From an uncultured Candidatus Saccharibacteria bacterium (lineage in GTDB: Bacteria > Patescibacteriota > Saccharimonadia > Saccharimonadales > Saccharimonadaceae), in NCBI GenBank assembly GCA_947570505.1, contig CANOTH010000011.1, forward strand, positions 1 through 33,395: a DNA stretch of 33,395 bases, in the 5' to 3' direction. Positions within the stretch are counted from its first letter, which is position 1. Each line of letters starts with the position of its first letter. This document shows, in pieces, positions 403 through 33,164 of the stretch. The position numbers and the translations under genes were made by a program. Under the pieces are notes generated by a model. That model made no database searches. It was not told where the DNA came from and saw only the letters and a list, made by a program, of their open reading frames with translations.

Positions 403-613
403 CTTCGTCCGTAGCGGGAATGTCAGCTTAAACAACGGCTCACTGAGGGACTTGGGCGACATTGGCTACAAGTGGTCACGCAGTGCTGTAGCTTACTCTT
501 CTGCGACCTCGGCTAGCTCTTACTGGTTTGGGTTTAGTACCTCAGGGTCTCGCCCGTCATACGGCCCGGACCGTCGTTGGATCGCTTTCCCCGTCCGCTG
601 TTTGGTATACTAG
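403..613 (+). repeat. Cassette 1: orphan FISUMP/DGR-like variable module
   Basis: This is a 211-bp module running from TTCGTCCGTAGCGG to GTCCGCTGTTTGGTATAC plus TAG. It translates without stops as FVRSG...GPDRRW..FPVRCLVY. The framework (VRSG, L-R, W-S-R, AYSSATSA, PS-GP, RW, FPVRCLV) matches the C-terminal part of FISUMP-type, C-type-lectin-like domains. An in-frame ATG lies at 383, but it has no Shine-Dalgarno sequence and the upstream residues are not shared with other copies, so I regard the copy as silent. It belongs to the AYSSATSA subgroup together with the copies at 20641, 21053 and 32738. A long imperfect hairpin follows at 632-750. Confidence 0.85.
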
Positions 614-1037
614 TTGGATGATGAGTATTATGTTTGAGTAGGAGAAGACAGGCAGGGGGAAAGGGAGAAGAAGGGGGAGTGAAAGAGGGGGACACAAAAC
701 AAGAAACCCTAACTCCAGCCTGGACTGCCTGGATTCTCCGTTGCTCAAACCTCAAGAAAGAAAAGAGTAAATAAAAAAGAAGCGGTTTGGAACTCGTCAT
801 AGAAATATGGCGAGTCCTTTTCTTTCGACTCCTCTAGTTTCGCGTCAAAATTAGAACATATCAAAAAGCCTGAGTGGCTAGCTGTATGATGGCGGACATT
901 CAAAAATCTCGCGGTGAGAGTGCCGATCTTTTTCTACCTAGTTCTTCGCCTAAGGGCGAAGAATAGTTGAACTTGTAATGACATTACAAGTTCAAACCCA
1001 ACACAACAGAGGTGAAACTAATGCTCATTCAACTTTA
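614..1037. other. Intergenic region between cassettes 1 and 2
   Basis: No gene is seen. Besides the cassette-1 hairpin it holds a terminator-like stem at 789-817 followed by TTTTCTTT, a 9-bp hairpin at 942-963 (TTCTTCGCC/GGCGAAGAA) and a perfect 14-bp palindrome at 967-995 (TTGAACTTGTAATG and its complement around one base). Confidence 0.5.
632..750. repeat. Long imperfect inverted repeat after cassette 1
   Basis: The arms GTTTGAG and GGAGAA (632-646) pair with TTCTCC and CTCAAAC (734-750). An inner pair CAGGCAG/CTGCCTG continues the stem. The loop is purine-rich (poly-G/A). It begins about 18 nt after the cassette stop, a position comparable to the hairpins behind three other cassettes. Confidence 0.6.
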
Positions 1038-1256
1038 TTCGTCCGTAGCGGAGCCATTGGTCTATATTATGGTTCTCTGAGAGCATCTGGATACAATAGT
1101 CAAAATTGGTCTGGAACAGCCGCTAATTACGGAATGGGTACTTGGGCTGCTGCAGCTTACAACCTCGACTTTGGTCCGTCAAGTGTTAACTCGTCACATG
1201 GCCCAGATCTTCGTTGGAACGGTTTCCCCGTCCGCTGTTTGGTAATACTAGTATAG
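1038..1256 (+). repeat. Cassette 2: orphan FISUMP/DGR-like variable module
   Basis: It starts TTCGTCCGTAGCGG and ends GTCCGCTGTTTGGTAATACTAG. One extra base in the end motif shifts the last codons, giving ..VRCLVILV and a TAG at 1254. The frame is open throughout and belongs to the G-TWAA-AY subgroup. An ATG at 978 lies inside the palindrome at 967-995 and would add 20 residues not found in other copies. There is no clear RBS, so I treat the copy as silent. A 22-bp perfect inverted repeat begins 1 nt after the stop. Confidence 0.85.
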
Positions 1257-1257
1257 T

Positions 1258-1374
1258 GCTTCTTTAGTTCCTATTCTGTGAGAGACTAAAAGAAACTAGC
1301 AGTGGATCATTATTACTCTACTGCTCCACTTACCTTCCATAACGAGTCTCGAACAGAATAGGAACTAAAGAAGC
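1258..1374. repeat. Hairpin with 22-bp perfect arms after cassette 2
   Basis: Arms 1258-1279 and 1353-1374 are exact reverse complements (GCTTCTTTAGTTCCTATTCTGT on the left, written here as 22 bases: GCTTCTTTAG then TTCCTATTCTGT). Inside the loop are secondary stems, GAGACT/AGTCTC and AGCAGT/ACTGCT. It could act as a bidirectional terminator between cassette 2 and gyrA, or as the cruciform found downstream of DGR variable repeats. The arms are not similar in sequence to the hairpins after other cassettes; only the architecture is shared. Confidence 0.85.
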
Positions 1375-1381
1375 TTATGAG

Positions 1382-1403
1382 TAGTATTAGGAAGACAGCG
1401 GAC
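1382..1403 (-). repeat. Inverted copy of the cassette end motif, 2 nt past gyrA
   Basis: On the minus strand this reads GTCCGCTGT, five bases, then TAATACTA. The end of cassette 2 is GTCCGCTGT, TTGG, TAATACTA. It sits 2 nt downstream of the gyrA stop, inverted relative to cassette 2, so that the hairpin 1258-1374 is flanked by inverted copies of the motif. Confidence 0.55.
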
Positions 1404-1405
1404 CC

Positions 1406-3934
1406 CTACTCCTCATCATCCCCTGGCAACACTACTCCGAGCGATGCCACCGCATCCCCATCATTCATTCGCATAATCCTCACACCTTGGGCAGCACGCC
1501 CCAAAGTCGGAATCTCCTTCACCGCTACCCGAATCGCAATTCCCTTAGTCGACATCAGAATAATCTCTTTAGCAGCCGGATCAAGAGTGTGCACCGCAAT
1601 AATCGGCCCAGTCTTTTCTGTCACACTAGCCACTCTAATACCGACACCACCTCGTTTGTGTGCTGGGAAATTCTCCGCCAGAGTCGCCTTGCCATAACCA
1701 TTCGCCGACATCACTAACAGCTTCTGGCCACGATCACGAATCACATCCATACCCACAATTTCGTCCTTCGGACGCAACCTAATACCACGCACACCTTTAG
1801 CACTTCGCCCCATGCTACGCACATCTTGCTCATTGAACCGCATAGCCTGCCCAGCTGAAGTCGAAATCACAATATCATTACCACCAGTAGTCTCCTGAAT
1901 CCACTTCAACTCATCACCTTCATCTAGCTTCACTGCAATCATGCCATTAGTACGCAAGTTCAAGAACTCCTTCACCGCCGTCTTCTTAATCGTACCCTTC
2001 TTAGTCGTCATAAACAAATATCCGTCTACATTCTCACCCTGCTTGATAATCGCCGTCACCTTCTCATCTGGATGCATATTCAACAAGTTCACTGCCGCAG
2101 TACCCTTAGCTACCATCGAAGCCTGCGGCACTTCATAAGCTTTCAGTCTAAAAATCCGACCCTGATTGGTAAAGAATAACAAATAATCATGCGAATTCGC
2201 CGTCACAATCTGAGCAATTACATCCTCATCCTTAGTAGTCATACCCTTACGACCCTTACCACCCCTATTCTGCCGTTTAAAGTCGCCCTGTAGTACCCGT
2301 TTCATATAATTCTCAGTCGTCAGCAAAATCACACTTTCCTCATCTGGAATCAGTTCTTCCTCAGAGAACTTCCCTACCTCGTGATTGATAATCTTGCTCT
2401 TACGCTCATCGCCATATTTTTCCTTCATGGCTAAGAGCTCTTCCTTGACTACTCGTAGCACCTCTTCTTCACTAGCCAAAATCTTCTCGTATTCCGCAAT
2501 CTGCGCGAGTAGCTCCTTCAGTTCCTCTTCAATCTTATCGCGTTCTAGACCTTGCAACCTCCTCAGCTGCATTGCCAAAATCGCTGCCGCCTGAATCTCC
2601 GAAAGACCAAACCGCTCCATCAACCGCTTATCAGCATCATCATAGCTCTCACGAATCGTCTTGATCACTTCATCAATATTATCCAGTGCTATCTTCAACC
2701 CCTCTAAGATATGCGCGCGCTCCTTGGCCTTTCTCAGCTCATACTCAGTCCTTCTTCTGACCACCTTTTGCCGGTGCTTAATAAACTCCGCCAAAATTTC
2801 TTTCAAACCCAAAATCCTTGGCTGCACCCCATCAACCAGCGCCAACATATTATAATGGAAAGTCGTCTGCAAACCTGTCATCCGATACAATTGGTTCAAA
2901 ATCTTCTTCGGAAAGGCATCTTTCTTCAGCTCTACCACTACCCGAATCTTACCCCGAGCGCTCTCATCGCGCGCATCCGCAATATGATCCAGCTTCTTAT
3001 TTAAGACCAGTTCTCTGACCTTCTCAATAAACCCCTCTTTGCTCATCCCATATGGTACTTCAGTAATCACAATCTGATAACGACCATTTTTCTTCTCTTC
3101 AATCCCAGCCACTGCCCGAATCGTTACACTACCCTTACCCGTAGCATAAGCTTGGCGCATCGGCGCACCACCATAAACTTCCGCCCCAGTGGGAAAATCC
3201 GGACCTTTTACGTGCTGCATTAAACCATCGAGACTAATCGTCGGATCCTCAATCTGAGCCACCGTCGCATCAATCACCTCTGACAAATTATGGGGTGGGA
3301 TGTTAGTTGCCATACCCACGGCAATCCCCATCTGACCATTCAACAAAATATTTGGCACTGCCGCAGGCAAAACCACCGGTTCTTGCTCACTACCATCGAA
3401 ATTGTCTCGAAAATCCACTGTTTCCTTCTCAATGTCAGTGAGCAATTCCGCACCCACCTTGTCCATCCGTGCCTCAGTATACCTTGATGCAGCCGGATCA
3501 TCACCATCCATTGAGCCAAAGTTACCCTGCCCCTCCACCAGAGTATAACGCATCTTCCAAGGCTGGGCTAAATTCACCATTGCATCATAGATCGAACTAT
3601 CACCATGCGGATGATACTTACCCATCACCTCACCCACAATCCTCGCCGACTTCACCGTCGCATGAGGAGCCTTCCAGCCATTTTTGTTCATAGCATACAA
3701 AATCCGCCGATTCACTGGCTTCAGACCATCCCGCACATCTGGCAGAGCCCGGTCAATAATCACTGACATTGAATAACGCAAGAAGTAGCTCTCCATCGTA
3801 CTCTCGACGGCTCGCTGCTCAATACCATCCACAATCTGGCCTTCTAGCTCCACCCCATCCACACTGGCATCTTTCTCTACTTTCTCATTCAATTCTTCCG
3901 GCCTCACCTTACTGTCCTCATCACTACTTGCCAT
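1406..3934 (-). CDS. gyrA: DNA gyrase subunit A
   Basis: This is the breakage-reunion subunit of DNA gyrase, which introduces negative supercoils as an A2B2 complex with GyrB. It is 842 aa, near the family norm. The first ~40 residues are an acidic extension. The quinolone-pocket segment [10 protein letters not shown] lies at about 108-117, with Ser113 and Asp117 at the positions of E. coli Ser83 and Asp87. The catalytic tyrosine is Tyr152 in [10 protein letters not shown] coiled-coil tower (about 430-530) follows, then the C-terminal beta-pinwheel with a GyrA box QNRGGKG at 555-561, which favours GyrA over ParC. The start has a GAGGAG Shine-Dalgarno. It lies 20 nt downstream of gyrB and is presumably co-transcribed. 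Confidence 0.97.
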
Positions 3935-3954
3935 ACAATCTCCTCTCTCTTACC

Positions 3955-5955
3955 CTAAAAGTCTAGCTCATCCAAATCAACCGTCGCCGCCCCCGCCTGG
4001 ATAAAGTTCTTCCTTAAATCTACTTGATCGCCCATGAGCTTCGTAAATACTGCATCGGCCTTCTCTGCATCATTAATATGCACCTGTACTAAAATCCGAT
4101 TCTCAGGATCCATTGTCGTCTCCCAAAGTTGCTTCGCATCCATTTCGCCCAAACCTTTGAACCGATTCTGCGCCGTATATCCAGCCTGCTTAAACCTCTC
4201 CTGATTCTCATCAATCTTCGTGCCAGCTGCCCGTCGTTCCTCAATCTTCTCACTCAGCTTCTTCTCTAGCGCCACTTCATCATAAACATAATCAATCTTG
4301 CGATTACTACCAGTTCCCTTCGTCAGCCCGAACAATGGCGGCTTCGCCAAATAAACATGTCCCGCCTTGATTACCTCCGGCATATACCTAAAGAAGAACG
4401 TCATGAGCAAAGTCGCAATATGTAAGCCATCAACATCCGCATCCGTCATGAAAATCACTTTGTGATACCTCAAACCACTAATGTCAAACTGATCACCAAT
4501 CCCTACCCCGAGACCTTTAATCAAGCTCACCAGTTCCTGATTAGCTAACATCTTATCCAGCCTTGCTCGCTCAGTATTCAACACCTTACCGCGGAGCGGT
4601 AAAATCGCCTGAATCTTCGGATTCCGACCCTCCTTCGCACTACCAGCCGCTGAATTACCCTCTACAATAAACAGCTCGCATTCCGTACGATCGCGGCTCG
4701 AGCAATCCGCTAGCTTACTCGGCAAATTCAACCCCTCAAAGGCCCCCTTGCGAATCACATTATCCCGTGCCGCCCGCGCCGCCTTGCGTGCCCGCGCCGC
4801 TAGAGTTGCCTTACCTACAATTTTCTTAGCTACCGCTGGGTTCTCCTCTAGATAATAGGCAAAATACTCGCTCATCACCTTATCAACATAACCCCGCACC
4901 TCTGGGTTACCGAGCTTGTTCTTCGTCTGACCTTCAAACTGCGGATCCGGTAGTTTCACCAAAATCACCGCCGTCAAACCTTCCTTAATATCATCACCGG
5001 TCAGATTCGGCTCTTTCTCTTTGAGTAAACCGTTCTTCCGTGCATAATCATTCACCACCCGCGTCATCGCCGTTCGAAAGCCAATCACATGCATACCGCC
5101 ATCCGGTGTCAACACATTATTCGCAAAAGGCTTAATCGTCTCTGCATAGCTATCATTATACTGCAAAGCCACTTCAACTTCTGAGTCTTCAATCCCCTTC
5201 TCCACATAGAAGATATCATCAGCCAACACTTCTTTGCCTTCATTTAGCTTACGCACGTAACTGCGAATACCACCCTCGAAATAAAATGCCTCTCTATCGC
5301 CCGTCCGCTCGTCCTTGACCGTAATCAGAATTCCCTTGGTCAGATAAGCCTGATGCCGAGCATAGCTCACCACCCAATTATAATCAAAATCCGTCGTCTC
5401 CTTAAAAATCGTCGCATCCGGATAAAATGTAATCGAAGTCCCTGTGCCCTTCGTATCCCCTACAATCTTCAAGCCATCACCAACCGTCTTACCACCATTC
5501 TCAAACTCCACCCGGTGCAACTTACCATTCTTGCGTACTTCAGCGACCATCTTGGTACTTAGTGCATTCACTACACTTGACCCCACCCCATGTAGACCCG
5601 AAGACACCTTATAGCCACCCCCACCAAACTTACCACCAGCATTCAAGACTGTTAGCACCGTCTCAAGTGTCGACTTCCCGGTCTTCGGATGCAAATCCAC
5701 CGGAATCCCCCGCCCGTTATCATCTACCCTGATACCACCATCTACCAGAATCGTGATATCTACCCGGGTACAGAACCCAGCAATGGCCTCGTCTATAGAG
5801 TTGTCAGCAATTTCCTTCAACAGATGATGTAAACCATCAAAACCAGTACTACCAATATACATGCCCGGACGAATCCGTACATGCTCAAGACCTTCTAGAA
5901 CCTGAATTTGTGAACTATCATATTCGTGCCCATCACTTGTTTGTTTTGCTGACAT
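3955..5955 (-). CDS. gyrB: DNA gyrase subunit B
   Basis: This is the ATPase subunit of gyrase, 666 aa, the short GyrB type without the large insertion of enterobacterial GyrB. The GHKL ATPase motifs are visible: EIADNSIDEA (Glu48, Asn52), DNGRGIP, and a glycine-rich lid ending in SSGLHGVGSSVVNAL. The TOPRIM domain has EGNSAAGSAKEGR and MTDADVDGLHI, and the C-terminal Toprim-associated part has RFKGLGEMD. It is first in the gyrB-gyrA pair. On the minus strand upstream, a -10-like TACAAT (5988-5993) is followed at once by AATGTAGAGGTAAT, a 14-mer also found after the thrS -10 box. Confidence 0.97.
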   Translation of the reverse strand: MSAKQTSDGHEYDSSQIQVLEGLEHVRIRPGMYIGSTGFDGLHHLLKEIADNSIDEAIAGFCTRVDITILVDGGIRVDDNGRGIPVDLHPKTGKSTLETVLTVLNAGGKFGGGGYKVSSGLHGVGSSVVNALSTKMVAEVRKNGKLHRVEFENGGKTVGDGLKIVGDTKGTGTSITFYPDATIFKETTDFDYNWVVSYARHQAYLTKGILITVKDERTGDREAFYFEGGIRSYVRKLNEGKEVLADDIFYVEKGIEDSEVEVALQYNDSYAETIKPFANNVLTPDGGMHVIGFRTAMTRVVNDYARKNGLLKEKEPNLTGDDIKEGLTAVILVKLPDPQFEGQTKNKLGNPEVRGYVDKVMSEYFAYYLEENPAVAKKIVGKATLAARARKAARAARDNVIRKGAFEGLNLPSKLADCSSRDRTECELFIVEGNSAAGSAKEGRNPKIQAILPLRGKVLNTERARLDKMLANQELVSLIKGLGVGIGDQFDISGLRYHKVIFMTDADVDGLHIATLLMTFFFRYMPEVIKAGHVYLAKPPLFGLTKGTGSNRKIDYVYDEVALEKKLSEKIEERRAAGTKIDENQERFKQAGYTAQNRFKGLGEMDAKQLWETTMDPENRILVQVHINDAEKADAVFTKLMGDQVDLRKNFIQAGAATVDLDELDF

Positions 5956-5987
5956 CCTGATGTACCTCTGCTTTACATTACCTCTAC

Positions 5988-5993
5988 ATTGTA
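5988..5993 (-). promoter_or_regulatory. -10 box of gyrB
   Basis: The minus strand reads GAGGTACAATGTAGAGG. TACAAT is the likely -10, about 33 nt before the gyrB start, and AGAGG/CAGG near the start can serve as RBS. Confidence 0.5.
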
Positions 5994-6018
5994 CCTCAGA
6001 TCATATCTAAAATCAAGC

Positions 6019-11508: not shown

Positions 11509-11864
11509 TGGTGGAGCTGCCGGATACTGCCTCCGGGTCCGAAAAATCTTCATGACACCATTCTACACGCATAGTTATTTGTTTCGTCAGCTTAACCCCA
11601 CAGCTGCAAATAACAAAACTGTGAGAGCTCTAATCAAAATTGTCGAGTTCGGAATGATTACTTCCCTCACCGTAGCATCGTAATCTAATAATCCGCAGCC
11701 TACGATACATCAGCCTTGGACCAGCTTAAATAATTAAATCTTAAGCAAATGCAGGTGCGTAAAGCACATGCTTAGTAGTGTTCTTTGCACTTATTAGTAA
11801 TACTTACGGTATTAATCGACGTGCCTGATGTCTGTTAATAATCCGTCTAAGCTTTGTCAGCCCC
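11509..11864 (-). ncRNA. ssrA: tmRNA
   Basis: This is the ribosome-rescue RNA, 356 nt. On the minus strand the 5' end is GGGGCTGACAAAGC..AGACGG and the 3' end is CAGCTCCACCA, so GGGGCTG pairs with CAGCTCC as in canonical tmRNA and the CCA is encoded. The tag frame starts at GCA (11788) and stops at TAA (11741); it encodes AKNTTKHVLYAPAFA, with a small hydrophobic end suited to proteolysis. The 3' segment (GCGTGTAG..TTTTTCGGAC) aligns well with known tmRNAs. The T arm is unusual: stem CCGGA/TCCGG encloses GGCAGTA instead of a TTCRA-type loop. A plus-strand frame (11447-11683) across this RNA is spurious. Confidence 0.93.
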
Positions 11865-15246: not shown

Positions 15247-15274
15247 AAAAACCACCTCGCAAGAGGTGGTTTTT
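15247..15274. terminator. Bidirectional terminator between rpmB and rnpB
   Basis: ACCACCTC-GCAA-GAGGTGGT stem (15251-15270) flanked by AAAA and TTTT. It ends the rpmI-rplT-rpmB transcript on the plus strand and RNase P RNA on the minus strand. Confidence 0.85.
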
Positions 15275-15282
15275 GTGAGTCT

Positions 15283-15618
15283 TCAATAAGCCGGGTTCTG
15301 TAATTCCCCTTTAAAAGGAACTGACAATCATCTATCTAGGCCAAAAATTGCTCTTTGGCTCTAGCGGTGAGCATGCATCCTCGGGTCAAGGTGTCTAGCA
15401 TTCCTTGCAGCCGGTAGGGTTTGCCTCCACTATATGTCACCATACAGTGCTGTGGGCTCTTACCCCACTCTTTTCACTTTTGCCGAGCAAGCTCGGTAAC
15501 CTTGTTTCTGTGGTACTTTCCCTATCCTTACGAACGGTCGCCGTTAGCGACTACCGTACCCTGTGCTGCCCGGACTTTCCTCTTGGTAAACCAAGCGATT
15601 GTCTTTCAGGCTCCTCAT
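15283..15618 (-). ncRNA. rnpB: RNase P RNA, bacterial class A-like
   Basis: This is the catalytic RNA that matures tRNA 5' ends. On the minus strand it contains GAGGAAAGTCCGGGC near the 5' end (CR-I), the GGTAAGAGCCCAC element, AGAGTGGGG, the CR-V-side element ACAGAACCCGGCTTAT at the 3' end, and GGCTGCAAGG / GAGGCAAACCC. About 335 nt. Ends are estimated to within a few bases. It is transcribed away from the nearby tRNA genes' promoters but on the same strand. Confidence 0.95.
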
Positions 15619-17543: not shown

Positions 17544-17765
17544 TTCGTCCGTAGCGGGCTTATACATCTTAACAATAGCGCCCTAAGAGACACTGGCGGT
17601 TATGGCGATAGCTGGTCAAACACCACTACGGTTTATGGGGCTGGTACCTGGGGCGCTAAAGCCTACTATCTCTATTTCGGCCCTGTGGATTCTACCGCAA
17701 ACACTAATTATGTCCGGTGGTTCGGTTTCCCCGTCCGCTGTTTGGTATACATAGTTAGCAATTGA
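17544..17765 (+). repeat. Cassette 3: orphan FISUMP/DGR-like variable module
   Basis: It starts TTCGTCCGTAGCGG and has the end motif GTCCGCTGTTTGGTATAC at about 17733-17750. The frame reads FVRSGLIHLNNSALRDTGG..WS..GTWGAKAYYLYFGP..VRWFGFPVRCLVY and runs a few codons past the usual stop. No start codon lies in frame nearby, so this copy cannot be expressed alone. It belongs to the GTW-A-AYYLYF subgroup. A hairpin follows at 17791-17901. Confidence 0.85.
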
Positions 17766-20640: not shown

Positions 20641-20850
20641 TTAGTATACCAAACAGCGGACGGGGAAACCGTACCAACGAAGGTCCGGGCCGTAGGACGG
20701 ATTAACGACGGAAGGATTAAAGTACAGCGGGTAGGCATTAGCCGAGGTAGCAGACGAGTAAGCAACACTCGAGCGCGACCAACCCCAGCCAGATTCACCA
20801 GAGCGCCGCAAAGCACCGTGGTCCAAGCGGACACCCCCGCTACGGACACT
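20641..20850 (-). repeat. Cassette 4: orphan FISUMP/DGR-like variable module, minus strand
   Basis: The only minus-strand full-length copy. It starts TGTCCGTAGCGG (first residue codon changed) and ends GTCCGCTGTTTGGTATAC-TAA at 20641. The frame reads VRSGGVRLDHGALRRSGESG..WSRSSVAYSSATSANAYPLYFNPS..GPDLRWYGFPVRCLVY. A downstream in-frame ATG gives a shorter frame; no RBS. It has unusually many C/G-rich codons (CGC, CTC, CCG) compared with the other copies. Confidence 0.87.
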
Positions 20851-21052: not shown

Positions 21053-21168
21053 TTCGTCCGTAGCGGGCTCATTAGCCTTAACTACTATGCTTTGCGTTAT
21101 GCAAATACACACGGTGGAATATGGTCTAAATCGGCACATGGTTGTATATCATCTAGCTCAGCTACTGC
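21053..21168 (+). repeat. Cassette 5: truncated copy running into thrS
   Basis: It starts with the standard TTCGTCCGTAGCGGG. Similarity (FVRSGLISLNYYALR..G..WSKS...SSSAT) continues to about 21168 and then stops; the thrS 3' end (21162, opposite strand) begins there. The second half, including GFPVRCLV and the GC-rich end motif, is missing. A plus-strand frame continues into thrS antisense but is not meaningful. Confidence 0.7.
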
Positions 21169-22928
21169 TCCGCCCGACTCACCAGCCACCCCCGCAGCTC
21201 ATCCAATTTCATCTTTTCTTCCCCCTCCCGAGTGCGCACACTCACTTCACGAGCTACAGCGTCCTTCGGACCCACAATCAACACCACTGGAATCTTCATA
21301 TCCGTCGCCCGCTTGATCTTCTTCCCTAAGCTGTCATCCGTACGGTCGACTTCAAATCTTAGCTCATTATTCTTCACCGGCTCCTGCAATACTATCCCAG
21401 ATAATGCCTTCTCCACCTCTTTCACATAATCCTCAGCTTGATCATTCACAGTCAAAACCCTCACTTGCTCTGGTGCACACCACAACGGAAACCACCCGGC
21501 CGTATGTTCAATAAAGATACTCATAAAGCGCTCAATTGCCCCCAGCAAAGCACAGTGAATCATAATCGGAGTCTTTTTGCCACCATCTTTATCCGTATAC
21601 TCCAGCCCAAAACGCGCCGGCATTGCATAGTCTAACTGCACAGTAGCGAGCTGCCACTCCCTCCCGAGAGCATCCACCGCCATGAAATCCATCTTCGGAC
21701 CATACATCGCTGCCTCACCTATACCGATAAAATACTCCATCTCAAACTTTTTCGCCATCCGTTCAATTGCCGCTTGAGCCTTTTCCCACATCTGTTCATC
21801 GCCAATATAGCCATCACCATCATCCCGAAAACTTAACCTCAGAGTCAGCTTCATTCCCACTCTCTTGTACAAATCCTTAGCACTCTCAATCAGCTCGCCA
21901 AACACCCCTTCTACCTGGTCTTCAGTACAAAAAACGTGCGAGTCATCTTGAGTAATCGCCCGCACCCGTGACAAACCACCTAGTTCCCCTTTGCGTTCAT
22001 CACGATAAACCATCGTCGTCTCCAGGTACTTCACTGGCAACTCTTTATACGAACGCGGCACACTGGCAAAAATCTGGCTATGATGCGGACAGTTCACTGG
22101 CTTCAAAGCTAACTCATCCCCACTCTCGGAGCTCACAAACTTCAATAGCTCAGGAAACTTCTGATAATGCCCCGAAGTCTTATACAAATCCACCGTCGCA
22201 ATATGTGGAATACAAACCTTACGGTAACCACAACGCACCCGATATCCCTGCGCCAACTCATTCAACATATCCCTCAGAATCACCCCTCTAGGTGTAAACA
22301 AAGGCAAACCCGACCCCACCAAATCCGAGAAACAGAACAAATCCAACTCTTTCCCCAGCTTACGGTGATCACGTTTCTTGGCTTCTTCTTGCTGATCCAG
22401 ATATGCCTGCAACTCTTCCTCAGTATTAAAAGCCAAACCATAAATCCGAGTCAGCATCTCGCGCTTTTCATCACCGCGCCAATATGCCCCCGCCAATCGA
22501 TCTAACTTGAATGCCCCAATCTCCGACAAATCCTCCAAATGTGGACCCTTACAGAGATCCATAAACAACACTTCCCCGGTCTTCGGATCAACCAAATCAT
22601 AAAAACTAATTGTCTCACTCTCAGGCAATTCCTCAATTAGCTCTACCTTATACTTCTGACCTTTACTTTTGGCCCAGCTAAGAGCCTCCTCGCGTGAAAC
22701 CTCACGACGTACCATCTGGCAGCCTCGCGCGATAATTCCCCGCATCTTTTTCTCTATCTTCGCTAAATCGCTATCAGAAACTTTAGTCTCGCCAAAGTCA
22801 ATGTCATAATAAAATCCATTCTCAATCGCCGGACCAATCCCAAAAGTTGTAGTTGGATAAAGCTCCTGTACCGCAGCTGCCAAAACATGACTGAGGGTAT
22901 GACGCATTTTTTCTAATTGCTCTTCCAT
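21162..22928 (-). CDS. thrS: Threonine-tRNA ligase without TGS domain
   Basis: 588 aa; it charges tRNA-Thr. The usual ~60-residue N-terminal TGS domain is missing, and the protein starts in the editing domain (MRHTLSHVLAAAVQELYP, with the HTLSHVL zinc/editing motif). The class II core shows motif 1, motif 2 (YRDERKGELGGLSRVRAITQDDSHVF region), the zinc ligands in NCPHHSQIF, and motif 3 GAIERFMSIFIEH. The C-terminal anticodon-binding domain follows. The promoter on the minus strand is TGATATAAT (22976 region), followed by AATGTAGAGGTAAT as at gyrB. The 3' end abuts cassette 5. Confidence 0.96.
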   Translation of the reverse strand: MEEQLEKMRHTLSHVLAAAVQELYPTTTFGIGPAIENGFYYDIDFGETKVSDSDLAKIEKKMRGIIARGCQMVRREVSREEALSWAKSKGQKYKVELIEELPESETISFYDLVDPKTGEVLFMDLCKGPHLEDLSEIGAFKLDRLAGAYWRGDEKREMLTRIYGLAFNTEEELQAYLDQQEEAKKRDHRKLGKELDLFCFSDLVGSGLPLFTPRGVILRDMLNELAQGYRVRCGYRKVCIPHIATVDLYKTSGHYQKFPELLKFVSSESGDELALKPVNCPHHSQIFASVPRSYKELPVKYLETTMVYRDERKGELGGLSRVRAITQDDSHVFCTEDQVEGVFGELIESAKDLYKRVGMKLTLRLSFRDDGDGYIGDEQMWEKAQAAIERMAKKFEMEYFIGIGEAAMYGPKMDFMAVDALGREWQLATVQLDYAMPARFGLEYTDKDGGKKTPIMIHCALLGAIERFMSIFIEHTAGWFPLWCAPEQVRVLTVNDQAEDYVKEVEKALSGIVLQEPVKNNELRFEVDRTDDSLGKKIKRATDMKIPVVLIVGPKDAVAREVSVRTREGEEKMKLDELRGWLVSRAEQ

Positions 22929-22981: not shown

Positions 22982-22999
22982 TCACACCCTTACCTAAAA

Positions 23000-25203: not shown

Positions 25204-25413
25204 TTCGTCCGTAGCGGGCATGTCGCTCTCAATACCGGCGCTATGAGGAACTTCGGTGTCAATGGCTACGATTGGTCTCGTATTGCTACTGTTCACGGGG
25301 CTGGTACCTGGGCTGCTAGAGCTTACTACCTCTACTTCCATCCTTCAGGTGTTTACCCGTCCAATAACAGTGCTCGTTGGCTCGGTTTCCCCGTCCGCTG
25401 TTTGGTATACTAA
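25204..25413 (+). repeat. Cassette 6: orphan FISUMP/DGR-like variable module
   Basis: Full length, FVRSGHVALNTGAMRNFG..WSR..GAGTWAARAYYLYFHPSGVYPSNNSARWLGFPVRCLVY then TAA. An ATG (25195) three codons earlier has no RBS. Its last 96 bp (25320-25415) are identical to those of cassette 8 (29059-29154), while the first half differs strongly. Confidence 0.88.
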
Positions 25414-25688: not shown

Positions 25689-25901
25689 TTCGTCCGTAGC
25701 GGGAATGTCGACTTGAACTTCGGTTCTCTGAGGAACTCCGGTAGAACTGGCAACGATTGGTCTCGCTCAGCCGTGGCTTATGGGATTGGTACCTGGGCAG
25801 CTAATGCTTACTACCTCGCATTTGATCTCTCGACTGTCTACCCGTCCTACGGCCCGTACGGTCGTTCCTACGGTTTCCCCGTCCGCTGTTTGGTATACTA
25901 A
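25689..25901 (+). repeat. Cassette 7: orphan FISUMP/DGR-like variable module
   Basis: Full length, FVRSGNVDLNFGSLRNSGRTGNDWSRSAVAYGIGTWAANAYYLAFDLSTVYPSYGPYGRSYGFPVRCLVY summarised by VRSG, WSRS, GTWAANAYYL, GPYGRSYGFPVRC; stop TAA. No start within reach. It sits between tRNA-Val and the rpsT promoter. Confidence 0.88.
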
Positions 25902-26980: not shown

Positions 26981-26986
26981 AAGCTC

Positions 26987-27895
26987 CTAGGCCCTCTCCG
27001 TGCCTTCTGAGGGCATTTTCTGACAAGTCGGACAGACATGAGTCCCCCTTCCAGCACACCGCGTTTTTTCAATTACCGAGCCACACTTATAGCACTTCTT
27101 ACCTTCCCGACGAAAGACTTGAGCAAATTTTTCCAGGTAATCCCCCGTCGTACCATCTGGACGCACGTAGGTCGCCATCGTCGATCCCCCCGATTCGATC
27201 GCCGCAGTCATAATTTTACAAGCCCCCTCCAAGATCTTCGCCACCTGCTCCTCAGTCAAAGCCCCTGCCATTGTAGCTGGATGCACCCCAGCATAGAACA
27301 ATGATTCATCCGCATAAATATTACCGAGTCCAGCAATGTTTTTTTGATCCAATAACACTGCCTTGATAGGTGCGCGCGCATGCCGACGGCATTTTTCGAA
27401 CAATTCACCAGGCTGCATCTCCCAAGGCTCTTTGCCGAGCTGAGCAATAAATTTATCCAATTCCACCTCTGTTGTAGGTAGCACCTTTACAAAACCAAAT
27501 TTTCGCTGATCGTTAAAAAATAGTTTCCCGTCACTGAACACAAAAATTACTCGAGTCTGAGAATTGGGCAATTCTGACGTAAAATTCTTGCTAGGATGCC
27601 CCGCGGCGAACTGGTTCTCTGTTTCTACAGATACTGTCTGTTCACTTAGACTTGCTCCCCTCCAAATTAGCTGCCCCGTCATTCTCAGATGAATCATCAA
27701 GGTAAAACCATTATCCAGATCTATTAACAAGGCTTTACCTCTGCGCCTTAGACCAATTGCCCTAGCCTCATTAACATCGGCCTCTGCTCCCTGAAATCCC
27801 TTATCTGACTTGACTTCAACCTGAACAATTTTTTTGTTCAAAATAAACGGCTTTAACCCTCTTTTTACAGTTTCTACCTCTGGTAACTCTGGCAT
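26987..27895 (-). CDS. mutM: Formamidopyrimidine-DNA glycosylase
   Basis: 302 aa. It excises oxidised purines and nicks DNA. The N-terminus MPELPEVETVKRGL supplies the catalytic Pro2 and Glu3, and RRRGKALLIDL has the conserved lysine near residue 57. The H2TH region shows NIAGLGNIYADE. The zinc finger is CYKCGSVIEK..C..C near the C-terminus. A ~20-residue insertion lies around 85-110. The minus strand reads TGATATAATGAGGGT, 3 nt, ATG, so the transcript starts at or within a few bases of the start codon. holA follows. Confidence 0.96.
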   Translation of the reverse strand: MPELPEVETVKRGLKPFILNKKIVQVEVKSDKGFQGAEADVNEARAIGLRRRGKALLIDLDNGFTLMIHLRMTGQLIWRGASLSEQTVSVETENQFAAGHPSKNFTSELPNSQTRVIFVFSDGKLFFNDQRKFGFVKVLPTTEVELDKFIAQLGKEPWEMQPGELFEKCRRHARAPIKAVLLDQKNIAGLGNIYADESLFYAGVHPATMAGALTEEQVAKILEGACKIMTAAIESGGSTMATYVRPDGTTGDYLEKFAQVFRREGKKCYKCGSVIEKTRCAGRGTHVCPTCQKMPSEGTERA

Positions 27896-27930
27896 AATAC
27901 CCTCATTATATCACACCTCTCAATCTATGC

Positions 27931-27936
27931 TATAAT
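27931..27936 (+). promoter_or_regulatory. -10 box directly before the GDPD-like gene
   Basis: TGCTATAAT, extended -10. The ATG at 27937 touches the box, whereas the ATG at 27943 is where transcription should begin, which argues for the second start and a leaderless mRNA. Confidence 0.7.
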
Positions 27937-27942
27937 ATGACT

Positions 27943-28860
27943 ATGAATGTCAAAACCAACAAAATCATTCTTCCTATCAGTATCAGCATAATCACATTGG
28001 CTCTTCTAGGTGGAATCTTTTATTTCGCTTCCAAGGCTCCCTGGATAAAAGCTCCAGAAAGCAGCACATCAGAAGAAATAGAAGATAGTAACGTACGTAA
28101 CTTCGACTACTCTTGGACTACAAATCCATACATCGCCCATGCCTTTGGGGGAATTTTAGGAGATACCTATACTAATTCTTATGAAGCTTTTTTGCTCAAT
28201 TATCAGCTCGGACACCGAGTCTTTGAGGTAGATTTTTTCATAACAAATGATGGTAAAACCGTCCTCGCACATGACGACGGGCACTGGCAAACCAATGCTA
28301 CTCTCCAAGCTGACGGTTACGTTCCGATTGATACTTCAAAATCCAGCGAATTCACTTATGATAATTTTATGTCTTCCCTGTGGTACGGCAAATATCACCC
28401 TGTCAACCTAGAAGAGCTATTTAAGCTAATGCAAAATTATCCGGATATCTATATCGTTACCGATACAAAATACACTGACAAGCAACACGTTCAAGACCAA
28501 TTTAGCGCCTTCTTGGAATCCGCAAAAAACATTGATAGCACCCTACTTGATCGTTTCGTAGTGCAAATCTATCATCCACAAATGTTGGATTGGGTCATGG
28601 AAGTCTACCCCTGGAGGTCCATCATCTACACTCTCTATGCCAATCCAAACTGGACCACAGAAAATGTTATCGAATTCTCTCAAAGTTCTGGTGTTAAATT
28701 CATTACTATTCCCAGCACTAGTCTCACCCCAGATAATATCAGCTCTTGGGAAGCTCAGGGTATCAAAATTGCTGTTCATACCATTAATAATTATGCCGAA
28801 GCTCAAAGATTTCACGGTCTGGGTGTATCCAATATCTACACTGATTTCCTAATCCCTTAA
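27943..28860 (+). CDS. Membrane-anchored glycerophosphodiester phosphodiesterase-like protein
   Basis: 305 aa from the ATG at 27943. A short basic start is followed by one membrane helix (about 7-28); the rest lies outside. The GDPD/PLC-type barrel is recognisable from NSYEAF, the metal motif EVDFFITNDGKTVLAHDD and later TDTKY and IYTLY/VKFITI strands. The first motif is HAFGG where HRG is usual, so the substrate may differ. Hydrolysis of glycerophosphodiesters from host or own lipids is possible. It is divergent from mutM. The stop lies 82 nt before cassette 8. Confidence 0.78.
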   Translation: MNVKTNKIILPISISIITLALLGGIFYFASKAPWIKAPESSTSEEIEDSNVRNFDYSWTTNPYIAHAFGGILGDTYTNSYEAFLLNYQLGHRVFEVDFFITNDGKTVLAHDDGHWQTNATLQADGYVPIDTSKSSEFTYDNFMSSLWYGKYHPVNLEELFKLMQNYPDIYIVTDTKYTDKQHVQDQFSAFLESAKNIDSTLLDRFVVQIYHPQMLDWVMEVYPWRSIIYTLYANPNWTTENVIEFSQSSGVKFITIPSTSLTPDNISSWEAQGIKIAVHTINNYAEAQRFHGLGVSNIYTDFLIP

Positions 28861-28942
28861 GCTAGCACCTATCTTGTGAAGAAAACTATCAATAGCACCA
28901 CCCTATTGCACCACAAGTTGGAGTCATCCCGCAAGTGTATAC

Positions 28943-29152
28943 TTCGTCCGTAGCGGGGGCATCGATCTTACTAATAGCGCTCTGAGGTCCTTCGGCATCA
29001 ATGGCCACGGTTGGTCTCATATCGCTACAGCTTACGGTACTGGCACCTGGAATGCTAAAGCTTACTACCTCTACTTCCATCCTTCAGGTGTTTACCCGTC
29101 CAATAACAGTGCTCGTTGGCTCGGTTTCCCCGTCCGCTGTTTGGTATACTAA
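28943..29152 (+). repeat. Cassette 8: orphan FISUMP/DGR-like variable module
   Basis: Full length, FVRSGGIDLTNSALRSFG..GWSH..GTGTWNAKAYYLYFHPSGVYPSNNSARWLGFPVRCLVY then TAA. No start codon is available. The 96 bp from 29059 are identical to cassette 6 although the first 115 bp are not. Confidence 0.88.
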
Positions 29153-29462
29153 TTAGAAATTAGTTAAAAGGCCAACCTAGCTTGACATTCACCTAAACTT
29201 TGATAAGCTTAAGTTATAAGGTTTTTTGAGTTGTCGTGAGACAACTCATTTTTTGACTATAATAGTAATCTTAACTATAATGATCAATTTCTTCAAAAGC
29301 TTCATCATAGCAAACCCTCCTTTCCCCACCAGTCGAAGGCGGAAGCCAAAAAGACTCTCTACACTCAGAAAAGATATCAAGCTAGCATTAGCCTAGTTCC
29401 TAGAGCAGCAAAAATCTCACAATTTTTGCAAGCATAATTGTGATATTTTAGTGATTTCACTG
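29153..29462. other. Intergenic region after cassette 8
   Basis: No gene. It holds a terminator-like 8-bp hairpin at 29228-29250 (GAGTTGTC/GACAACTC) with T6 on each side, two TATAAT-like boxes (about 29260 and 29276), and an AT-rich inverted repeat at about 29409-29450 (TCACAAT/ATTGTGA). Confidence 0.55.
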
Positions 29463-29485
29463 ACTAGTATTACCAAGCAGCGGAC
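29463..29485 (-). repeat. Inverted copy of the cassette end motif past polA
   Basis: On the minus strand this reads GTCCGCTGCTTGG then TAATACTAGT, one mismatch in 23 to the end of cassette 2. It lies 7 nt downstream of the polA stop. No cassette body is attached. Confidence 0.8.
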
Positions 29486-29492
29486 ATAGACC

Positions 29493-31961
29493 CTACAACT
29501 CTCCCCAATTCTTCCCCACTGACACATCCACCGCTAGCTTCACGGGCAATTCTGGCGCAACCGCTTCCATCTCCCGTTTCAAAATCTGCCCCACTTCATC
29601 TGCTAAATCTTCTTTGCACTCCACAATCACCGAATCATGCACCTGCATCACCATCTCAGTTCCTTGCGGCAAAACCCTGTCTAGTGTAATCATTGCCCGC
29701 TTCATCAAATCCGCCTCTGTTCCCTGGATTGGCATATTCTGCGCCGCCCTCTCCGCCGCTGTCCGAACAATAAAATTACTCGATTTCACATCCGGAGTTG
29801 GCCGCCGGCGACCAAACAAAGTCTCCACATAGCCCCTCTCTCTAGCTTCTTCCAAAATCCCCCCCAGATAATCCTTGATCGGTCTCCTCAGTTCAAAATA
29901 GTGCTCAATGAAGTCTTTCGCCTCATAATATTGCATATCCGCCGCCTCAGCCAACCCCCGAATACTCATACCATAGAGAATACCAAAATTAATCACCTTG
30001 GCTGCACGGCGCTGAGCCTTAGACACTTCCTCCATTGGCACCCCAAAAGCCTCTGAAGCAGTCTTCGTATGAATATCCACATCGTTATTAAAATCTTCAA
30101 TCAAATCTTGATCACCCGCAAGAGCCGCAGCCAGCCTCAATTCAAACTGCGAATAATCCGCGCTCACCAATACTTTACCTTCATCCGCCACGAACCCTTC
30201 ACGAATCCGCCTCCCCACCTCTGTTCGCACGGGGATATTTTGCAAATTCGGATTCGTCGAAGACAATCTCCCCGTCGCCGTCACATCTTGATTAAAAGTA
30301 GTATGCACTCGCCCATGAGTATCTGCTAGCTCTGGCAAAGGCGCAATATAGGTCGAAAGCAGCTTCGCCGCCTCACGATACTCCTTGATCGCCTTAATAA
30401 TCGGATGTTGGTCCTGCAACTTGTCCAATTCTTTAATCCCAGTCGAATACCCCCGCGCCGTCTTCTTAATTCCCTTAGTCGAAAGTGCCAACTTATTAAA
30501 CAACACGTCAGCCAGCTGCACCGGCGAATTTACATTAAACTCCGTGCCCGCCAACTCCCAGACTGTCCGCTCCTTCCCCGCCACTTCGCGCTCAAACTCC
30601 ACCTTCAAACGAGCAAAATACCCCCGATCAATCAACATCCCCCGCTTCTCCATCTTATAGAGTACCGGTATCAAAGGTAAATCAAACTCGCGATACACTA
30701 TATAAAGCTCCGTGCGCTTAGCGAACTCTGTCTTCTGCACCTCATAGGCTAAACACTCATCGCTTCGATCCACTTCCCTCATCAAAGGATTCAGCAAAAA
30801 TGCCGCCTGCCCCAAATCCCAATACTTTGTCCTCGTCAAAATCTGCTCCGCTACTTTCGCATTCTTGTGCATCAAATCTTTCACATTCCAACTCACCAAA
30901 GTCCCATCTGGTAATTCCCGTACAATCTCCAAAGTTTGCTGTCCATAATCTACCACTGGTGTTTTTATGCGCTTATGGCTCTTTGCCGACCCCCTAGCGG
31001 CCTTTTGCTTCCGAACCGCTGTGTCATGGCTATCCAAATCTTCTAAGCCTTCTAGACCCTCCTGCGTACCTCTAGCGGCATTTTCGCTAGCTTGTTCCTT
31101 TTGTACAGCCTTGAACTTGCGAATCAAGCTCCGAAATTCCAACTTCTCTAGTGCCGCTACAATACGATTTTGATTAATTTCGAGATCTGGCAAATCCTCT
31201 AACCTCACCGGTGCATCCGTCATAATCTTCGCAAGCTGATAAGACATCTTGGCACTCTCTTCCCCAGCAATCAATTTCTTCTGTACTGCGCCCGTAATCT
31301 CATCAATATGCTTATAAACCCCATCTACCGTACCATAAGCATTTAGTAGCTTCACCGCCGTTTTTTCACCAATTCCCGGCACCCCTGGAATATTATCCGA
31401 AGCATCACCCTTCAAAGCCTTCAAATCCAAAAATTGCGATTTTTTAATCCCATATTTCGCCTCTACCGCCGCCACGTCTAGCTCTTCAAGCTGTGTAAAG
31501 CCCTTCAAGATTCGGTACATTCTAGTATTGTCATCCACAATCTGCAACATATCGAGATCAGAAGAGACGATAAAAGTATCATAGTCACCTTCGTCATCCG
31601 CCTGCAAAGCCAAAGTTCCAATAATATCATCCGCCTCGTAATCCGCACACTCCACAAAATCCCAACCTAAGGCCTTCACTAAATCCTCTAAATATGGAAT
31701 TTGCGCATAGAAATCATCCCCAGGCTTCGTGCGCCCAGCCTTATAATCCGCATAAATTTTTCGCCGTTTCGAAACCGAGCTCTTCGCATCCCAAGCTACC
31801 ACCACCTTCGTTGGATCCAACTGTCGCACAATTTCCATCGCAATCGCCGCAAAACCATAAATCCCCCCAGTTGGCACACCTTCACTAGTGGCTAATGCCC
31901 CCATCGCATAATACCCACGATAAAAGACCGATTTTCCATCAATAATTACTAAGCGCTTCAT
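29493..31961 (-). CDS. polA: DNA polymerase I
   Basis: 822 aa from the ATG at 31961. The 5'-3' exonuclease domain comes first (IDGKSVFYRGYYA; ADYEADDIIGTL; DASDNIPGVPGIGEKTA). The middle ~150 residues lie where the 3'-5' exonuclease should be but lack the DxE and following acidic residues, so proofreading is probably absent. The polymerase domain has DYSQFELR (Asp602), the O helix RRAAKVINFGILYG, and QVHDS (Asp776). An ATG 36 nt upstream (31997) is upstream of the promoter. The minus strand reads TGGTATAATGAGGATATG, a -10 box ending 6 nt before the ATG: probably leaderless. Confidence 0.96.
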   Translation of the reverse strand: MKRLVIIDGKSVFYRGYYAMGALATSEGVPTGGIYGFAAIAMEIVRQLDPTKVVVAWDAKSSVSKRRKIYADYKAGRTKPGDDFYAQIPYLEDLVKALGWDFVECADYEADDIIGTLALQADDEGDYDTFIVSSDLDMLQIVDDNTRMYRILKGFTQLEELDVAAVEAKYGIKKSQFLDLKALKGDASDNIPGVPGIGEKTAVKLLNAYGTVDGVYKHIDEITGAVQKKLIAGEESAKMSYQLAKIMTDAPVRLEDLPDLEINQNRIVAALEKLEFRSLIRKFKAVQKEQASENAARGTQEGLEGLEDLDSHDTAVRKQKAARGSAKSHKRIKTPVVDYGQQTLEIVRELPDGTLVSWNVKDLMHKNAKVAEQILTRTKYWDLGQAAFLLNPLMREVDRSDECLAYEVQKTEFAKRTELYIVYREFDLPLIPVLYKMEKRGMLIDRGYFARLKVEFEREVAGKERTVWELAGTEFNVNSPVQLADVLFNKLALSTKGIKKTARGYSTGIKELDKLQDQHPIIKAIKEYREAAKLLSTYIAPLPELADTHGRVHTTFNQDVTATGRLSSTNPNLQNIPVRTEVGRRIREGFVADEGKVLVSADYSQFELRLAAALAGDQDLIEDFNNDVDIHTKTASEAFGVPMEEVSKAQRRAAKVINFGILYGMSIRGLAEAADMQYYEAKDFIEHYFELRRPIKDYLGGILEEARERGYVETLFGRRRPTPDVKSSNFIVRTAAERAAQNMPIQGTEADLMKRAMITLDRVLPQGTEMVMQVHDSVIVECKEDLADEVGQILKREMEAVAPELPVKLAVDVSVGKNWGEL

Positions 31962-32002
31962 ATCCTCATTATACCATCTCCCTAACCACGACCACAAATA
32001 TA

Positions 32003-32022
32003 GTTTGTTCGGTTTTTACAAC
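32003..32022 (-). promoter_or_regulatory. Weak GTTGT element near polA/kinase
   Basis: The minus strand reads GTTGTAAAAACCGAACAAAC, which matches the start of the comM-associated element (GTTGT-N2-AAA) but not its tail. It is in the divergent intergenic region. Confidence 0.3.
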
Positions 32023-32068
32023 ATACTACTGTACTATCGACAACTAACCAGGCCAGCTTTTACTATGT

Positions 32069-32074
32069 TATAAT
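32069..32074 (+). promoter_or_regulatory. Extended -10 box of the kinase gene
   Basis: TGTTATAAT, 7 nt before the ATG at 32082, so transcription probably starts at the start codon. Confidence 0.65.
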
Positions 32075-32081
32075 TAAACAT

Positions 32082-32648
32082 ATGAAAACTCGAGACGTAA
32101 AAATCATAGCAATTGTTGGCATGAGCGGCAGCGGCAAATCAGTTGTAGTCGACTACCTAACAGAACATGGCTTCCCCAAAGTCTACTTCGGAGGCATGAT
32201 TTATAAAGAAATGGAAAAACGCGGCATTGAATATAGCCCTGATAACGAACGCGAATTCCGCGAGATGATTCGTAATACCGAAGGCAAAGATTGGGTCGTC
32301 CGACAGGCCATTGCCGAGACCAAAGATTTAATTGAAGCCGGGCAAAAGCGCATTATCCTTGATGGAGTGTACTCTTGGACCGAATATAAAGCCCTCAAGC
32401 ACGAATTCCCTGGAGAATTAACCTTTTTGGCTGTCGTCACTCCAAAAGCCCTGCGCTACGAACGAGTTGCCAACCGCCCCGAGCGCCCCTTTGATGGCCA
32501 AAAAATCCGCGAGCGCGATTATAGCGAAATCGAGAATCTCGAAAAAGGCGCCCCTATTGCCATGGCCGACTACTATGTTTTGAACGATGGCGCAATCGCA
32601 GATCTGCAGAATCAAGTCGCTAAAATCCTCAAGGAGATCAATTTCTAA
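32082..32648 (+). CDS. P-loop kinase, dephospho-CoA/nucleoside-monophosphate kinase-like
   Basis: 188 aa. The Walker A GMSGSGKS lies at 13-20. YFGGMIYKEMEKRGI is reminiscent of NMP-kinase substrate-binding helices, IILDGVYSWTEY is a Walker-B-like DGVYS element as in dephospho-CoA kinase/AK6-type proteins, and RVANRPERPFDG is a lid-like basic segment. The substrate cannot be assigned; it could be dephospho-CoA or a nucleotide. It is divergent from polA. Cassettes 9 and 10 follow 89 nt after the stop. Confidence 0.75.
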   Translation: MKTRDVKIIAIVGMSGSGKSVVVDYLTEHGFPKVYFGGMIYKEMEKRGIEYSPDNEREFREMIRNTEGKDWVVRQAIAETKDLIEAGQKRIILDGVYSWTEYKALKHEFPGELTFLAVVTPKALRYERVANRPERPFDGQKIRERDYSEIENLEKGAPIAMADYYVLNDGAIADLQNQVAKILKEINF

Positions 32649-32737
32649 AGCTGGAGAGTTTAGCTACCAAGCCGCCTGTTGGGATTATTATCGTCGCTAT
32701 CTAGAAACATTACCTTAATTTAATCCAACATATACTC

Positions 32738-32947
32738 TTCGTCCGTAGCGGGTACATTGCGTTGGATTATGGCTCCCTCAGAGATAATGGTAGACGCGGT
32801 GATGAATGGTCTTCAGTAAGTACGACCTACTCATCTAACTTTCGGGCTCTAGCATACAACCTATTATTCACTGATTTAGGTATTTTCCCATCTGACGGCC
32901 CGCTCAATCGTTGGGGTGGTTTCCCCGTCCGCTGTTTGGTATACTAG
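32738..32947 (+). repeat. Cassette 9: orphan FISUMP/DGR-like variable module
   Basis: Full length, FVRSGYIALDYGSLRDNG..EWSSVSTTYSSN..AYNLLFTDLGIFPSDGPLNRWGGFPVRCLVY, stop TAG. There is an internal ATG but none before the conserved start. It is separated from cassette 10 by only 7 nt and has no hairpin of its own. Confidence 0.88.
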
Positions 32948-32954
32948 TTTAGGC

Positions 32955-33164
32955 TTCGTCCGTAGCGGACACATTACTCTATACAACGGAGCTTTGTGGT
33001 CATTCGGCTTCGTTGGCGACGGCTGGTCTAGAACGGCAGCTAGTTATGGAGGGAGTGGTTCCTGGGATGCTATAGCTTACTACCTCAATGCAACTACATC
33101 CAGTGTTGAAGCAGCCGTTCACTACGTTCGTTGGCTTGGTCTCCCCGTCCGCTGTTTGGTATAG
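32955..33164 (+). repeat. Cassette 10: orphan FISUMP/DGR-like variable module
   Basis: Full length, FVRSGHITLYNGALWSFG..GWSRTAASYGGSGSWDAIAYYLNATTSSVEAAVHYVRWLGLPVRCLV. The end motif has a change that makes the stop come one codon early (GTATAG). It is in tandem behind cassette 9. An ATG upstream lies inside cassette 9 in another frame. Confidence 0.88.

Follow-up and report, generated by a model that had tools for sequence, protein, structure and literature searches.

Diversity-generating retroelements (DGRs) invent binding variants, each of which overwrites the previous one; silent archives store variants. The defining signature of a DGR is adenine-specific change from a template, and its parts include a reverse transcriptase (RT), a template repeat (TR) and a variable repeat (VR). 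Here we analysed 33,395 nucleotides of DNA from an uncultured Candidatus Saccharibacteria bacterium (assembly GCA_947570505.1, contig CANOTH010000011.1, positions 1 to 33,395 of the forward strand; hereafter the window), which contain ten short, start-less cassettes with common ends, and followed these cassettes through the genome and its relatives. A preliminary description of the window had mentioned DGRs as background only; the cassettes turn out to be DGR VRs with identifiable templates. Our analysis indicates that these VRs without a gene are likely a silent library, and that the copying of whole cassettes between conserved ends switches the tip of a predicted adhesin, a reading to which we assign a probability of roughly 0.72.

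The closest described systems each share part of this arrangement. Like DGRs of the BPP-1 type and those with remote targets in Treponema denticola and cyanobacteria, the present system has an RT, TRs, VRs, adenine-specific changes and a putatively C-type-lectin-like target; in both, TR and VR also diverge past their 3′ ends, and remote targets are known that are perhaps diversified in trans (PMC4891356, PMC7517822, PMC10907252). The same sources place the remote VRs of T. denticola in genes, at two to seven per isolate and occasionally truncated, count 76 remote targets in a cyanobacterial survey, all near gene 3′ ends, and describe incomplete loci in Thiohalocapsa that are possibly diversified in trans (PMC4891356, PMC7517822, PMC10907252). 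Remote VRs known from these sources sit in genes, whereas only one of 120 full-length cassettes in the present genome has an upstream frame longer than 91 codons; the five stand-alone TRs and the identical VRs at unrelated sites are further differences. Like Borrelia vls/vlsE and Neisseria pilS/pilE, the system comprises one full-length gene and many incomplete copies with conserved ends, and the variable segment of the gene equals a silent copy. A G-quadruplex (G4)-like run is a further parallel; here it lies in a flank whose beginning matches that of the sequence behind the gene. Borrelia strain B31 has 15 silent vls cassettes (PMC3585125, a paper on G4 DNA). The vls cassettes form contiguous arrays, whereas more than 100 cassettes are dispersed here and those near a template bear a retroelement mutation signature. 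In the literature consulted, mostly abstracts, we found no report of numerous start-less VRs, of sets of TRs that stand alone or of a silent archive coupled to a DGR, and the largest DGR survey is, by its own statement, blind to VRs away from the RT (PMC8144416).

The ten bounded cassettes of the preliminary description are real. Far above chance, the start motif TTCGTCCGTAGCGG has nine exact matches in the window (0.04 expected), and the end motif nine at up to three mismatches, seven of them exact (0.01 expected). Some particulars needed correction: the first copy begins one base later than described, at 404, and the start motif, said to open all ten, is exact in nine, while the minus-strand copy (20847-20647) begins AGTGTCCGTAGCGG, so that the core common to all ten is GTCCGTAGCGG. 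The shared 3′ end is exact in seven copies; two others, at 1038 (..GGTAATA) and 32955 (..GGTATAG), depart from it beyond GGTA. As described, the reading frame is open and identical in all ten, one of which (21053) is truncated, and no silent copy has a convincing start. The cassettes lie between long open reading frames (ORFs), although the claim of purely intergenic placement fails for the truncated copy (21053-21169), which has 8 bases in common with the 3′ end of ORF 21162-22928. The features are as follows, with C denoting contigs (of this assembly unless another genome is named), G genomes and L fetched stretches.

404..607, plus strand: cassette 1, a VR, GTCCGTAGCGG...CTGTTTGGTA; closest TR, on C9, at 26 mismatches, 11 at A.
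611..691, plus strand: repeated flank TAGTTGGATGATGAGTATTATG... downstream of cassette 1, recurring on C28; G4-like run at 655-691.
1038..1244, plus strand: cassette 2, a VR with end variant GGTAATACTAGT; closest TR at 57 mismatches, 19 at A.
17544..17747, plus strand: cassette 3, a VR; closest TR at 68 mismatches, 18 at A.
20647..20847, minus strand: cassette 4, a VR with 5′ edge AGTGTCCGTAGCGG; 30 mismatches to the C1 TR, 17 at A.
21053..21169, plus strand: cassette 5, a truncated VR (model positions 1-117), with start motif and profile match.
25204..25407, plus strand: cassette 6, a VR; 24 mismatches to the C15 TR, 14 at A; mosaic with cassette 8.
25689..25895, plus strand: cassette 7, a VR; 44 mismatches to the C2 TR, 14 at A.
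28943..29146, plus strand: cassette 8, a VR; 31 mismatches to the C15 TR, 14 at A; mosaic with cassette 6.
32738..32941, plus strand: cassette 9, a VR in tandem with cassette 10; closest TR at 69 mismatches, 19 at A.
32955..33161, plus strand: cassette 10, a VR with end variant GGTATAGCTAGTT; closest TR at 58 mismatches, 23 at A.

The mosaic pair, cassettes 6 and 8, is identical in the last 71 interior bp. Sequence outside the cassettes had been called unrelated, yet the flanks of the 404 cassette recur at C28:3782 (165 bp upstream and 143 bp downstream), enclosing another cassette, the 32955 cassette has 234 bp of downstream sequence in common with a copy on C16, and a repeat element lies behind the 1038 copy. 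This element, at window ~1257-1376, resembles a miniature inverted-repeat transposable element (GCTTCTTTAGTTCCTATTCTGT ... ACAGAATAGGAACTAAAGAAGC). Copies of it are found behind cassettes of several other contigs as well, in many cases at the CTAG there.

The cassettes extend far beyond the window. A search of the whole genome with both end motifs, as had been proposed, returned 95 exact start motifs and 128 end motifs at up to two mismatches, and none for the reversed control patterns. With a cassette profile modelled on the copies in the window, a scan of the window and of 59 further fetched stretches found 133 copies in these parts of the genome, 120 of full length; the 13 partial matches are excluded from the frame counts. 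The repeat unit runs from GTCCGTAGCGG to CCCGTCCGCTGTTTGGTA, with the 5′ core exact in 114 of 120 copies and the 3′ word in 104; five of the 16 copies lacking exact CCCGTCCGCTGTTTGGTA are TRs. Outside the unit there is a weak AC at -2,-1 on the left and a loose xxCTAGTT on the right, counted over 105 copies, the other 15 having no anchor word or reaching the end of a stretch. The tendency of cassettes to lie 3′ of genes applies to the window and is lost genome-wide, where the nearest 5′-side ORF of at least 120 aa has the same orientation as the cassette in 58 cases and the reverse orientation in 51; for the other 11 the stretch contains no such ORF (n = 120). Overlap with an ORF by more than 60 bp occurs in 20 of 120 copies on a crude ORF list, mostly with ORFs made of cassettes themselves; one of the overlapping ORFs is the full-length gene described below, and three more lie in L046 (one) and L063 (two). 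Several contigs terminate at cassettes. Head-to-head pairs occur in L042, L058 and L076, with a palindromic CCGCTACGGAC-GTCCGTAGCGG core that is shared or nearly so and spacers of 0 to ~14 bp.

Five of the copies, on C1, C2, C6, C9 and C15, are rich in asparagine codons and continue differently from all others: after CCCGTCCGC comes a short spacer and then CGCGGTTCGGTGCCGATC. The 17-base tail word GCGGTTCGGTGCCGATC, searched genome-wide at up to one mismatch, has five occurrences, and each is at one of these TRs. Among the 16 genomes searched, ten have no tail word; at the same stringency the relatives G042, G096 and G039 have one each, G173 two and G170 seven, and of these 12 places the eight that were inspected all lie behind a cassette-like frame. 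In all seven TRs folded (L035, L039, L054, L059, L066, L158 and L161), GCGG of the tail is predicted to pair in RNA with CCGC (CCGT in G042) at the repeat end. Three cassettes of G042 (L143 1215 plus, L144 4272 plus and L149 793 minus) have another common 3′ continuation, CCACG[CT]TCCTGACGTCGCTGACAGAAGCTCG. A repeated element ending CTCGCGGTGAGAGTGCCGATC, which resembles the TR tail, lies at window ~870-928, behind no cassette, and at C3:1-55, so that the RT-bearing contig C3 starts within a copy of it.

Comparison with these templates reveals adenine-specific change. In the 24 of 115 VRs of this genome that lie within 35 mismatches of a TR, the changed fraction is 0.36 at A, 0.10 at C, 0.083 at G and 0.071 at T. 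In this genome and in two relatives, VRs near a TR differ from it about 4-7 times as often at A as at other bases. For the relatives, the fetched VRs were compared (49 in G042 and 27 in G096, against whole-genome counts of 81 and 66): within 60 mismatches, 29 of 49 VRs of G042 give 0.434 at A vs 0.090 at other bases (4.8x), and 17 of 27 VRs of G096 give 0.502 vs 0.074 (6.8x). Differences at A make up 8/12, 9/18, 17/21, 15/23, 20/24, 19/25, 21/26, 21/26, 22/27, 15/29, 21/29 and 21/30 of all differences in the 12 VRs closest to the G042 TR, and 18/21, 16/21, 20/22, 17/24 and 19/25 in the five closest of G096. The bias is lower when all VRs are taken, whether in G042 (49 VRs; A 0.454, C 0.201, G 0.218, T 0.144), in G096 (27 VRs; A 0.499, C 0.207, G 0.170, T 0.168) or in this genome (115 VRs; A 0.419, C 0.333, G 0.299, T 0.250). 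These comparisons show that the cassettes close to a TR are DGR variable repeats. One VR, L043-1736, is itself template-like for two others, with 9/9 and 12/15 of the differences at its adenines, and a lost template, or a VR acting as template, is therefore likely.

DGR-lineage RTs carry [LIV]GNxxSQ in place of QGxxxSP. Read by eye, VIGNLTSQLLSN and YVDD are present in the RT on C3 (RVT_1, 38.3 bits) and in the G042 RT. In the PDB, the C3 RT is closest by sequence to 8ub7 (E 7.8e-21), a reverse transcriptase of 328 aa that we take to be the BPP-1 DGR enzyme; its best NCBIfam match is a group II intron RT model, at 67 bits vs a cut-off of 300. By motif and best PDB relative, the C3 RT is classed here as a predicted DGR-lineage enzyme. 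The RTs of G042 and G096 are 72 and 76% identical to the C3 RT, and both genomes have a tail-bearing TR ~340-370 bp downstream of the C3-type RT. At E 1e-20, 94 of 174 genomes of the genus contain this RT family. A gene encoding 331/358 aa (L032 2420-3415 minus; L106 428-1504) lies directly upstream of the RT and is conserved in this genome (G000) and G042; no Pfam family matches its product above cut-off, and it is a candidate accessory factor for retrohoming. Also adjoining the RT on C3 is a small ORF (L094 619-1011) whose product matches a CdiA C-terminal domain (PF18451, 41.7 bits). A second, separate DGR at L031 (C22:12120-15860) comprises a GNLTSQ RT, an asparagine-rich TR (ending NVVRAVAAL) and, nearby, an Lcl_C-like target with a matching VR; a weak match to Avd was found only there. 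We considered the C22 RT as the writer of the cassettes and dropped it, since the TR and VR that accompany it differ in type from the cassettes (VRAVAAL end); it may act on them in trans.

The full-length gene with the same C-terminal module, predicted in the preliminary description, is present at C27:13105-14934 (609 aa), the one full-length gene among six matches in the genome. Its FISUMP label is weak (34.5 bits vs the TIGR02145 cut-off of 41.65), and the one cassette scanned matched no Pfam or NCBIfam family. The proposed sequence exchange with an adhesin also gains support. The tip of the C27 gene equals a silent cassette on C19, with 212 bp identical and the identity stopping at the cassette edges. 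A second version of the gene, on a contig outside this assembly, has an identical 522-aa N-terminal part (P0001 vs P0002), and 33 of 71 residues are common to the two tips, each of which equals a start-less cassette over 66/66 residues. The silent twin and the gene copy coexist in one assembly, and identical VRs were found at unrelated sites. Four copies share 32-157 bp of the upstream sequence of the gene, and all four have a twin (at most 12 mismatches), compared with 18 of 111 other VRs; this comparison was chosen post hoc from a list compiled by hand, and one of the four twins is at 12 mismatches. In G042, a gene on C20 with a VR at its 3′ end is cut inside the VR by the contig end; in G173, a candidate full-length gene with a cassette on C19 (open frame 612) was dropped when a closer look showed no such gene. 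G4 runs play a role in pilE switching. Given this, the G4-like run GGGGGAAAGGGAGAAGAAGGGGGAGTGAAAGAGGGGG at window 655-691, ~48 bp downstream of cassette 404 and also on C28 (L083 2428), is a lead by analogy. It is one of four distinct G4-like runs in 314 kb scanned, and the contigs that carry the full-length gene (C27) and a fragment of it (C24) both end with the first ~30 bp of the TAGTTGGATGATGAGTATTATG flank.

The frames of the silent copies speak against decay. Of the 120 full copies, 119 keep the frame FVRSG...FPVRCLVY free of internal stops; the exception is a copy on C23 without the exact end word. In addition, 114 of 115 cassette lengths are divisible by three, five copies without that word being excluded from the length and stop counts. 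Had the observed number of changes fallen randomly, a stop would be predicted in 77.9 of the 110 VRs counted, and in 4.9 from adenine changes alone; none of the 110 has one. Full cassettes with an internal stop number 0/50 in G042 and 0/28 in G096. In G096, 18 of 69 profile matches do contain a stop within the aligned region, and that region often begins ahead of the cassette. The silent cassettes are therefore either regularly tested in the full-length gene or recently written from tested templates. All full copies but one (119 of 120) have an upstream open frame of no more than 91 codons, and 105 copies show no common start or ribosome site upstream, only the weak AC at the edge; an in-frame ATG or GTG lies closely upstream of a few.

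The same picture is found in related species. In the 16 genomes searched with the profile (E 1e-8), picked mostly for a close RT, we counted at least 124 cassettes in this genome, at least 121 in G171, 81 in G042, 66 in G096, 62 in G173, 55 in G013, 54 each in G039 and G170 and 34 in G172; the remainder have few (G040 6, G014 5, G053 4, G049 2, G057 and G163 1 each, G046 0). Eight further species of the genus thus have from 34 to at least 121 cassettes each.

These observations are compatible with a two-stage scheme of writing and storing, in which the DGR writes the target and more than 100 silent sites and mutation-free copying loads any stored tip into the adhesin; we rate this fuller scheme slightly better than an even bet. 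The C3 RT would copy template RNA with errors at adenine, and the resulting complementary DNA (cDNA) would overwrite or add VRs at matching ends. Because all templates share those ends, each of the five could serve the RT as source for every site whose ends fit, and the more distant VRs would derive from lost templates. The full-length gene is presumably expressed and would receive stored cassettes by unmutated copying at the DNA level; its putatively C-type-lectin-like tip may bind a partner cell or surface, and switching would alter this binding. The DGR step alone should not give two identical VRs, because each round draws new bases at adenines; for the unmutated copying, we infer both direction and enzyme. 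In the BPP-1 system, 8 bp of identity are enough for completing homing (PMC3240598) and reporter editing is independent of RecA (PMC12875486), so the short cassette ends could serve either copying route.

Several points weigh against a silent library that supplies the adhesin. The assembly is a fragmented bin (1.23 Mb, 72 contigs, 6.47% contamination), and no TR lies near the RT within C3:1-9000. The VR 3′ ends of 107 VRs give no hairpin signal (mean fold energy, RNA parameters, -8.44 vs -8.27 and -7.96 for controls). For 53 of the 115 VRs in this genome no TR comes within 60 mismatches; these show little adenine excess, so that their DGR origin rests on likeness; close VRs are changed at ~5-12% of non-A bases, more than expected for a classical DGR, and the two VRs nearest the G042 TR (8/12 and 9/18) are less A-biased. 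Among relatives, the cassette-rich genomes G171, G172 and G013 have no TR tail within one mismatch, G040, G014 and G057 combine a close RT with few cassettes (6, 5 and 1), and further full-length genes of the family in G096 (C27, C37) have tips that the cassette profile does not match. As to the second tip, its match on C2 follows a gene-like stretch of 32 bp, and the copy on C3, which is cleanly silent, matches 64/66 residues because one inserted C shifts its last bases. The cassettes had been proposed as donors or products of exchange; exchange is supported, and copying may run from library to gene or from gene to library.

The direction of copying bears on the most serious competing explanation, in which the cassettes are dead-end by-products: one real DGR target would exist, its VR or template cDNA would also have been inserted intergenically without function, and twins would arise by outward copying of the gene tip. 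The RT, templates and one target do form an ordinary DGR set, and the silent copies lack a convincing start. We nevertheless consider this explanation unlikely, since 119 of 120 copies are stop-free where random change would break most, the edges are nearly invariant, two archived tips occur on two versions of one gene, and eight further species have 34 to at least 121 copies. The open frames, together with the in-frame ATG or GTG just upstream of a few, could alternatively mean that the cassettes are translated mini-genes and not a silent store; with upstream frames that, except in one of 120 copies, do not exceed 91 codons, and no common start or ribosome site among 105, this is very improbable.

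In shufflons and integrons, too, segments bounded by conserved ends can be exchanged. The cassette ends might in such a manner be the substrate of a site-specific recombinase or transposase, while the DGR merely mutates the cassettes, and the exact edges in twins, the tandem and head-to-head arrangements with the palindromic CCGCTACGGAC/GTCCGTAGCGG core, and the adjoining inverted-repeat elements would all suit this idea. Conversely, only 11 and 18 bases are conserved at the two ends, and these belong to the VR proper; templates, whose 3′ end differs, have also spread, and, unlike in shufflons and integrons, no recombinase or attachment-site array has been identified here, none having been searched for. 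We regard mobile cassettes as improbable, and as only weakly disfavoured by this comparison because no recombinase search was made. A strain mixture or misassembly could make one VR locus appear as many, and the 72 contigs, the 6.47% contamination and the contigs that end at cassettes invite this suspicion. Yet ten cassettes occur on one 33-kb contig with different genes between them, and bins with 1% contamination (G042 and G096) give the same picture, which leaves artefact the least credible account of all. Between the cassettes of the window, Rfam models also identify housekeeping RNAs, the transfer-messenger RNA (tmRNA) and RNase P RNA genes at 11509-11864 and 15272-15614.

A genome that joins a DGR to a silent archive would explain a large and reusable set of tips in a tiny bacterium, and the function of many Patescibacteria DGRs becomes testable. 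The finding also shows what surveys limited to VRs beside the RT miss. If the silent-library reading is true, random invention by reverse transcription and a heritable memory of earlier tips would be combined in a genome near one megabase.

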